64,000 nucleotides of DNA from an uncultured Bacteroidales bacterium (GTDB lineage: Bacteria > Bacteroidota > Bacteroidia > Bacteroidales > UBA932). Below the pieces are notes generated by a model that was not told the origin of the DNA, searched no databases, and saw nothing but the letters and a program-made list of their open reading frames with translations. Shown piece by piece: positions 45,448 to 59,276 of this stretch. The translations under genes were made by a program, and so were the position numbers. The stretch's first letter is position 1. Every line of letters starts with the position of its first letter. The stretch covers positions 62,001 through 126,000 of the forward strand of contig CAJONC010000006.1 in the NCBI GenBank assembly GCA_905235675.1. Direction: 5' to 3'.

Positions 45448-46622
45448 TGGTATACCTGCACGTCCCTTTCTGCAGGAGTTTCTGCACCTACTGCGATTTC
45501 TATTCGGAGATTGCCTGCAAGGGGAGGGATGCCGCCGCGATTGACCGCTGGACGGAAGAAGTCTGTACGGAGGCGCTGTCCCGCAGGAAGGAGATAGGGC
45601 AGACGCTCGACCTCAATACGCTTTACATAGGAGGAGGTACGCCCAGCGTGCTTCCTCTTTCCGTTTTGCGTAGGGTGGTGGAGTGCCTGGAGGAGATTAC
45701 GGGCGCGGGGCCGCGTTCGGGGAGGAGATATGAGGAGTTTACGATGGAGGTGAATCCGGAGGATATAGTGGAGAAGGGAGATGAGTATGTGCGGGGTCTT
45801 CTGGATTTGGGGGTGACGCGGTTCAGTATGGGGGTGCAGTCGCTCGACGATGGCATTCTCCGCTGGATGAACCGCCGCCACGATGCCGCCGATGCCCGCA
45901 AGGCTTTTGATATTCTGCGTAGTGCGCGGCGGAGCAATCCCTCGCCGACCGCTTCGCTTCGCTCCGCCCCTCCCAGCAAAGCTGGGTCCCTCCCTCTAAG
46001 CCGAGGGTGGCGTAGGTCTTGCGAGGGATTCTCCGCCGGCGCTATAAGTGTAGATATAATAACCGGCGTTCCGGGGATGACGGAAAGGATTTTGGCGGAG
46101 ACTGTCGATGAGATTATTTCATGGCATCCTGAACACATATCTTCATATCAGTTGAGTGTCGAGGAGGGCAGCGCCCTCGCGAAAATGATAGACGGGGGCA
46201 TCGCCGCCGAACTCGACGAAGAACAGTGCCGCGCGCAATACGAACTTGTCTGTACCAGGCTCGCCGCCGCAGGATACCATCATTACGAGATATCCAACTG
46301 GGCCCTGCCGGGTCACGAAGCAGTTCACAACTCCGCCTACTGGACCCGCCATCCTTACGTCGGTCTCGGCCCCGGAGCCCATTCGCTGATATTCCGGAAG
46401 CCTGACGGTACCCCCGCAAAAGACGGGGAAATACAGTGCCGCAGCTGGAACGCCGAAGCCCTTGAAAACTGGAGAAATGACGAGGATGGCTCAGGAAGCG
46501 AAATCCTCACCCCCGAGCAGATTCGCGAGGAAGAAATAATGCTTCTCGCCCGCACCGCCGCCGGCCCCATCCCCGAAAAAGACTGGTTCGTCGCCGACGA
46601 TATAATAGCTTCGATGATTTAA
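45447..46622 (+). CDS. hemW: HemW-type radical SAM protein carrying an internal ~40 aa insertion
   Basis: VPFCRSFCTYCDFYS (CxxxCxxC); YIGGGTPSVLP; FSMGVQSLDD; VDIITGVPGMTERI. Confidence 0.9.
   Translation: MVYLHVPFCRSFCTYCDFYSEIACKGRDAAAIDRWTEEVCTEALSRRKEIGQTLDLNTLYIGGGTPSVLPLSVLRRVVECLEEITGAGPRSGRRYEEFTMEVNPEDIVEKGDEYVRGLLDLGVTRFSMGVQSLDDGILRWMNRRHDAADARKAFDILRSARRSNPSPTASLRSAPPSKAGSLPLSRGWRRSCEGFSAGAISVDIITGVPGMTERILAETVDEIISWHPEHISSYQLSVEEGSALAKMIDGGIAAELDEEQCRAQYELVCTRLAAAGYHHYEISNWALPGHEAVHNSAYWTRHPYVGLGPGAHSLIFRKPDGTPAKDGEIQCRSWNAEALENWRNDEDGSGSEILTPEQIREEEIMLLARTAAGPIPEKDWFVADDIIASMI
45928..46037. repeat. Palindromic insertion element inside hemW
   Basis: outer arms GGCGGAG-c-AATCCCTCGC / GCGAGGGATT-CTCCGCC; inner hairpins CCCAGC-AAA-GCTGGG and CCCTC-taagcc-GAGGG. 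Confidence 0.75.
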
Positions 46623-58136: not shown

Positions 58137-59276
58137 ATGAACTTCAATAATTTCCGCAGCACGCTCCCTGCCTTGTTTTTCACGGTTCTGCTTGTAGTTC
58201 TTTCTGCATGCACACAAAGCAGATACGCCCGGTTCGGGGGTTACGCGCAAGGGGGAACCTGGGGAGTAAAAGCGAATCTGGCGGGAGTCAAGGTGAAGCC
58301 TGCAGAAATCCAAAAACATATCGAAAATATTCTGTATGAGATAGATACGACTCTTTCAGGATATAACAAGGCCTCGCAACTCAGCCGCTTCAACAATGGG
58401 GTGGAGGTGGCATTAAGCCAGATGTTCAATGAAGTTCTGGATGCGGCTTACGGTTTCTGGAAGGAGACGGACGGAGCCTTGGACTGCGCCGCAGGGCCGC
58501 TTTTCGATATCTGGGGATTCGGTTTCAAAACAGATTCCCTCCCTTCCGACGAACTGGTCCGCCGGACCCTTGCCTCCTGCGGGATGAAGTTGCTGGATTC
58601 TTCTGAATTATCGCGGCCTGTCCTGCTCCGTTCCCTCGACCCCCTCCCTGAAGGGCCCCTCCCCCTACCCGGGGGTGGCAGGTACTCGGGAAACGGACAG
58701 GACAAGGCCGAAGAGCATAAAGCAGACTGTGCTATCCAACTGAATTTCAATGCAATAGCCCAAGGATACAGCTGCGACAAAGTGGCGGAATATCTGTATG
58801 GTATCGGAGTGAAGGATATGCTGGTGGATATAGGAGAGATTTATTGCGACGGACTTAATCCGCAGGGGAAGCCGTGGAGAGTGGGAGTGGACAGGCCGAA
58901 GGACGGGAACAACAGCCCCGGAGCCGACCTTGACGGAATTTGGGAATCGGACGGCGGTCCGCATGGAATCGTTACTTCCGGAAATTATCGCAAATACTAT
59001 ATAAAGGACGGGGTGAAATATTCCCACACAATCGACCCTCGTACCGGTTGGCCTGTTCAACATAATCTATTGAGCGCCACCATTATAGCACCTATTGCGA
59101 TGGAGGCCGATGCTTATGCCACCTACTGCATGGTGATTGGTTTCGAGGCCGCGAAAGAATTCATAGAGAGCCGACCGGACATAGAAGGATATCTGATTTG
59201 CTCCGCTTCTTCGCCATCCGCCACGGACAACGGGATGGTGGAATGGGCCAGCGCCGGCTTCAATCTTGTAAAATAA
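58137..59276 (+). CDS. apbE: FAD:protein FMN transferase (ApbE family) lipoprotein with internal palindromic insertion
   Basis: YAQGGTWGVKANL; LNFNAIAQGYSCDKVAEYL; YSHTIDPRTGWPVQHNLLSATII. Confidence 0.92.
   Translation: MNFNNFRSTLPALFFTVLLVVLSACTQSRYARFGGYAQGGTWGVKANLAGVKVKPAEIQKHIENILYEIDTTLSGYNKASQLSRFNNGVEVALSQMFNEVLDAAYGFWKETDGALDCAAGPLFDIWGFGFKTDSLPSDELVRRTLASCGMKLLDSSELSRPVLLRSLDPLPEGPLPLPGGGRYSGNGQDKAEEHKADCAIQLNFNAIAQGYSCDKVAEYLYGIGVKDMLVDIGEIYCDGLNPQGKPWRVGVDRPKDGNNSPGADLDGIWESDGGPHGIVTSGNYRKYYIKDGVKYSHTIDPRTGWPVQHNLLSATIIAPIAMEADAYATYCMVIGFEAAKEFIESRPDIEGYLICSASSPSATDNGMVEWASAGFNLVK
58614..58710. repeat. Palindromic insertion element inside apbE, related to the hemW element
   Basis: imperfect arms CGGCCTGTCCTGCTCCGTTCCC / GGGAAACGGACAGGACAAGGCCG; inner CCCTCCCTGAAGGGCCCCTCCCCCTACCCGGGGGTGGC. 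Confidence 0.7.

Follow-up and report, generated by a model that had tools for sequence, protein, structure and literature searches.

The imperfect palindromes carried in frame by apbE and hemW belong to a dispersed family of elements, with 27 copies in this 2.2 Mb genome (covariance model, E ≤ 0.01), two of which lie in the window, the 64,000-nucleotide stretch of DNA that we analysed, which spans positions 62001-126000 of contig C6 of genome G000. The outer arms of the elements vary between loci and remain Watson-Crick complementary inside each, the core changes orientation against its flanks from species to species, nearly the whole palindrome is absent from empty-site orthologues, and many host proteins tolerate the element in frame within loops. 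We read the family, with a probability of ~0.62, as a mobile palindromic element of Bacteroidales that is short and apparently non-autonomous, and the arms of which would be maintained by template switching.

Within the 379-codon apbE frame, the palindrome encodes RPVLLRSLDPLPEGPLPLPGGGRYSGNGQDKAEEHKA immediately ahead of LNFNAIAQGYS, and the apbE loop is 71 aa long here, where most relatives have 23-37 aa. The imperfection of the arms hides them from an ungapped repeat finder run with a 9-base seed, but when scored with gaps they lie above the 99% level of swapped arms. The covariance model, whose training set includes the apbE core and excludes the hemW core, returned E-values of 3.0e-10 for the apbE copy and 3.6e-12 for the hemW copy.

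The first-pass annotation, made from sequence alone, had described the apbE palindrome, likened its core to that of the hemW element and suggested a dispersed family tolerated in coding DNA. The palindrome, its reading frame and its coordinates held when the sequence was re-read, and the likeness of the two cores proved to be beyond chance in pattern controls and with the covariance model. The proposed family is supported by the 27 copies from the genome-wide profile scan that the annotation had called for, no fewer than 14 of which sit in frame within identified genes, and the empty-site comparison that it also called for yielded insert-free orthologues. One correction concerns the two copies in the window, which are of different subtypes: the apbE element is type A, with the first hairpin missing and a CCCCC:GGGGG stem, while the hemW element is type B-like, with the first hairpin present and a CCCTC:GAGGG stem. 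The annotation missed that the arms are locus-specific and co-vary, that the core flips between species, and that several conserved loops are repeated targets.

Table 1. Positions of the two elements in the window, with the apbE host gene and the parts of the apbE copy.
Feature	Position	Strand	Remarks
apbE host gene, FAD:protein FMN transferase	58137..59276	+	NF007774 and PF02424 matches
Palindromic insertion element in apbE, subtype A, in frame, ~95 bp	58615..58709	+	
Left outer arm in apbE, GGCCTGTCCTGCTCCGTTCCC	58615..58635	+	Pairs with 58688-58709; locus-specific, absent from other copies
Right outer arm in apbE, GGGAAACGGACAGGACAAGGCC	58688..58709	+	Pairs with 58615-58635; locus-specific, absent from other copies
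Inner hairpin hp2, CCC-TGAA-GGG	58646..58655	+	Across the family, length varies and pairs co-vary
Inner hairpin S1, CCCCC-TACCC-GGGGG	58661..58675	+	CCCNC:GNGGG covariation across subtypes: T-A, A-T, G-C, C-G
Palindromic insertion element in hemW, type B-like, in frame	45924..46042	+	HemW of L137 lacks the insert

A dispersed family with locus-specific arms

The covariance model was built from 24 cores of several subtypes, and the training copies match it by construction. Scanning the 2.2 Mb genome for CCCTCCC-N2..14-GGGN-CCCTCCC gave 15 matches vs none for the backward pattern, and a narrower version of the pattern matched once in the window and in none of 100 shuffles. An ungapped palindrome scan of ~1.2 Mb, window included, listed 29 entries, one of which is a run of N; most of the other 28 resemble the family, 16 of them holding the core by pattern and a few more as judged by eye. 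Outside this genome, a pattern scan of 84,980 genomes found at least 114 matching stretches, and all 114 are titled as Bacteroidales, Bacteroidia or genera of that order, namely Coprenecus and Alistipes. Seventeen of the 61 genomes around this one matched, all within the same genus. There was one match among viral contigs and none in the plasmids searched, and the family therefore looks chromosomal.

Each unit is 97-125 bp long and consists of a core of stacked small hairpins, CCCCTCCC-hp2-GGG-CCCNC..GNGGGTGGCA, enclosed in an outer stem of 22-28 bp. The outer arms (~22-28 bp) are different at every locus and ~95% paired within a locus: the median score of an arm against its own partner is 22.5 vs 6.5 against swapped ones, with 144 of 151 copies above the 99% level, and aligning 54 copies shows both-sided changes at 26 outer-stem pairs, in several to many sequences. 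Three copies (L005, L006, and L007) have identical 47-bp cores and differ in their outer arms, and among ten type A paralogues with 86% identical cores, arm likeness is 0.50 vs 0.46 for shuffled arms. The right arms show a weak consensus of GGTTTC, purines, a variable part and pyrimidines, and end ~24 nt past GGCA. Inside the core, covariation is seen in hp1 and hp2, between the loop dinucleotide and the bases after GGCA, and in CCCNC:GNGGG across subtypes. An H-type pseudoknot formed by S1 and a TGCC:GGCA helix was considered and set aside; both helices are supported, but the single linking base seems too short, and the two helices may be alternatives. As separate observations, four copies (L057, L081, L140, and L013) hold a further small palindromic unit, approximately ACCCC-palindrome-GGGGACCCCG, nested in hp2, and the L156 copy is flanked by an 18-bp direct repeat, GGACCAGGGCCCGTCCGT.

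Empty sites, host loops and shared sites

The empty-site comparisons were made at ~70-88% identity, and the ends of the inserts are imprecise. For uvrA, several relatives are ~117 nt shorter (99-123 in all but one) and the palindrome is 124; the rluD empty site is 117 nt shorter with a palindrome of 125; apbE is ~102 nt longer than the 37-aa orthologues with a palindrome of 97; hemW, for which there is a single empty orthologue, differs by 105 vs a palindrome of 125; and L042 and L209 differ by 84 nt. In the empty orthologues of L242 and L243, the inner part of both arms is missing. The insert thus comprises nearly the whole unit, and simple copying of the target does not account for the arms. 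A TA target duplication is possible in L042/L209, and the other sites are unclear at this level of identity.

At least 14 of the 27 copies in this genome lie within one long open frame of an identified gene, the hosts being a RhaD-like aldolase/dehydrogenase, a family 95 glycosidase, a helix-hairpin-helix protein, fmt, rluD, uvrA, hemW, polA, apbE, dsbD, rnr, a dihydrolipoyl acyltransferase, a 4Fe-4S protein and a UvrD-like helicase. Core enzymes (uvrA, polA, rluD, and rnr) each gain ~30-40 residues per in-frame insertion. Over all collected copies, 53 of 151 are in frame by a strict rule and 59 by a looser one; such counts select for open frames and give no measure of the rate of gene-breaking insertion. 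Certain loops were hit repeatedly. The rluD loop of related species carries several different elements in both orientations, the apbE loop of L042 has a second element in the opposite orientation, that of L208 (G069) has a different palindrome, CAGCCCGGCAAT...ATTGCCGGGCTG, and one loop of RNase R carries insertions in three species. We also observed that the rluD loop is hypervariable (L264-L268, L272), holding several different palindromic insertions and one tandem duplication.

At the 13 sites with a copy in at least two species, 67 both-sided and 56 one-sided arm changes were counted (summed over species pairs). Species pairs with flanks at ≥94% have one-sided changes only, as expected if mutation comes first and copying later. 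At six of the 13 sites, the core is inverted with the arms in place. Independent insertion at one loop could account for some of the inverted pairs, and the site shared by L168 and L114 is highly diverged, so that independent insertion is possible there too. Template switching that homogenises arms and inverts the spacer is on record both for yeast genes (PMC8604942) and for RNA genes (PMC8794818), and the hallmarks of such quasipalindromes, compensatory arm changes plus spacer inversion at orthologous sites, are seen here.

Upkeep of the arms and rival explanations

From the mismatch and pairing patterns, we infer that arm complementarity is more plausibly upheld at the DNA level than by RNA selection. 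Watson-Crick pairs fill 3505 of the 3681 arm cells, with G-T in 28 and A-C in 54, whereas terminator-like hairpins of the same genome, with G-T scored as a mismatch, have 53 G-T vs 37 A-C, a modest contrast. Were the stem preserved as a single-strand RNA product, G-T should outnumber A-C; the arms have no G-T excess, and DNA-level upkeep is therefore favoured.

In the mechanism we propose, the whole hairpin unit would enter via an unidentified activity, after which template switching between the arms would copy mutations from arm to arm and occasionally invert the core; these steps are inferred from sequence patterns and have not been seen directly. Within a genome, the cores may be kept alike by gene conversion or by recent spread. 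The main puzzle is that similar cores have unrelated arms, which implies either fast arm renewal with core homogenisation or new arms at insertion. As paralogue arms are hardly more alike than shuffled ones, the arms must renew quickly or at insertion, and drift plus correction alone may be too slow. A bolder reading is also conceivable, in which terminal repeats are not inherited, each insertion makes new complementary arms, and the mechanism reads structure rather than end sequence.

A search with the Y1 family model yielded no mobilising enzyme for the element. It detects a single Y1 transposase-like gene in the genome, which was set aside as a candidate mobiliser since its flanking hairpin differs from the element. 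We also looked for left or right halves standing alone at the borders of a larger element; only internally disrupted or truncated copies (L128, L145, and L160) came up, and no gene-carrying version. Separately, the Y1 transposase-like (RAYT-like) gene at L032:1377-2322 (G000 contig C31) has on both sides a hairpin with CGTCTGGTACATTTGCACCAGACG, and solo hairpins resembling it occur at L314:716-761 and L309:5243-5288 (different loop).

Among the rival explanations, one holds that the stem is kept by RNA selection, as a terminator, regulatory RNA or ribozyme that is incidentally mobile. The strong covariation of the outer stem, the covariation of the loop dinucleotide with the two bases following GGCA, and the many copies outside a long open frame speak for it. 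Against it, the arms show no wobble preference, pairing is nearly equal inside genes (93.8% in in-frame copies, 95.1% in the others), the core orientation flips, and Rfam models matched only weakly, below their gathering scores. We consider this explanation unlikely, and caution that strong covariation by itself is no proof of a functional RNA.

We initially favoured a second explanation, that the arms are an inverted target duplication, made when a nicked target end, once elongated through the element, folds back on itself and uses ~25 nt of its own flank as a template. In its support, L005, L006, and L007 combine identical cores with wholly different, well-paired arms, the uvrA left arm can be aligned to native VAEDS codons, and the outer 10 nt of the L242 right arm (CCTCGGAGAA) are native. 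However, it predicts a shortfall of the palindrome minus one arm, 96-99 for uvrA, rluD and hemW, whereas the shortfall is that of a near-whole palindrome (uvrA 117/124, rluD 117/125, L042/L209 84), and the L242, L243 and L042 empty sites lack the inner 13-15 nt of the arms. The hemW shortfall (105) is compatible with both whole-unit insertion and target duplication. With the empty-site lengths counting against it, this explanation too appears improbable.

That the core alone moves, landing in the loops of pre-existing palindromes, is very doubtful: short imperfect palindromes do lie at the insertion point in two empty sites (CTCCGGCAGGAG in L245 and GGCTGTACGGCC in L209), but none of the empty sites examined holds a palindrome as long as the arms. 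That C/G-rich palindromes merely resemble each other by chance, for which only the high G+C of the core could be cited, is virtually ruled out by the 27 model matches and by the reversed-pattern and shuffle controls (15 vs 0 and 1 vs 0/100).

Comparison with known systems

With regard to upkeep, our preferred reading, template switching between the arms, resembles quasipalindrome correction as described in the two studies cited above, in that arms are homogenised and the spacer is inverted; unlike there, it would act here on a whole mobile family and not on scattered chance palindromes. With its many copies, and with sites at which different species carry the element in opposite orientations, the family suits a direct test of how long palindromes are kept perfect over evolution, by strand-symmetric replication correction or by RNA selection.

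With regard to mobility, mobile GC-rich hairpin DNA is known from organelles as mitochondrial GC clusters and repetitive hairpin elements, but these belong to organelle genomes and the comparison is by analogy only. REP/REPIN sequences with their RAYT are likewise dispersed hairpin-forming DNA, but the RAYT-like gene here has its own unrelated hairpin and is not flanked by the element (only Y1-model genes were considered). The closest known kind, as judged without sequence comparison to the Rickettsia palindromic elements (RPE), is that of RPE and MITEs, except that conserved terminal repeats are missing. MITEs (RU-1/2/3, ERIC, BOX, and others) are similarly short, dispersed, apparently non-autonomous and sometimes intragenic, whereas the present element has no terminal inverted repeats conserved between copies (only the weak consensus, with the ten type A paralogues as the comparison), no clear target-site duplication and no cognate transposase among the genes searched for (Y1 family only). 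In-frame palindromic insertions are best known from Rickettsia. RPE are palindromic units of ~150 bp that lie in frame in many unrelated protein genes (PMC10969869; PMC6649704), and in-frame insertion into many unrelated genes is seen here as well; the family described here differs from them in its Bacteroidales host, in its conserved core with locus-specific arms and in the inversion of the core at shared sites.
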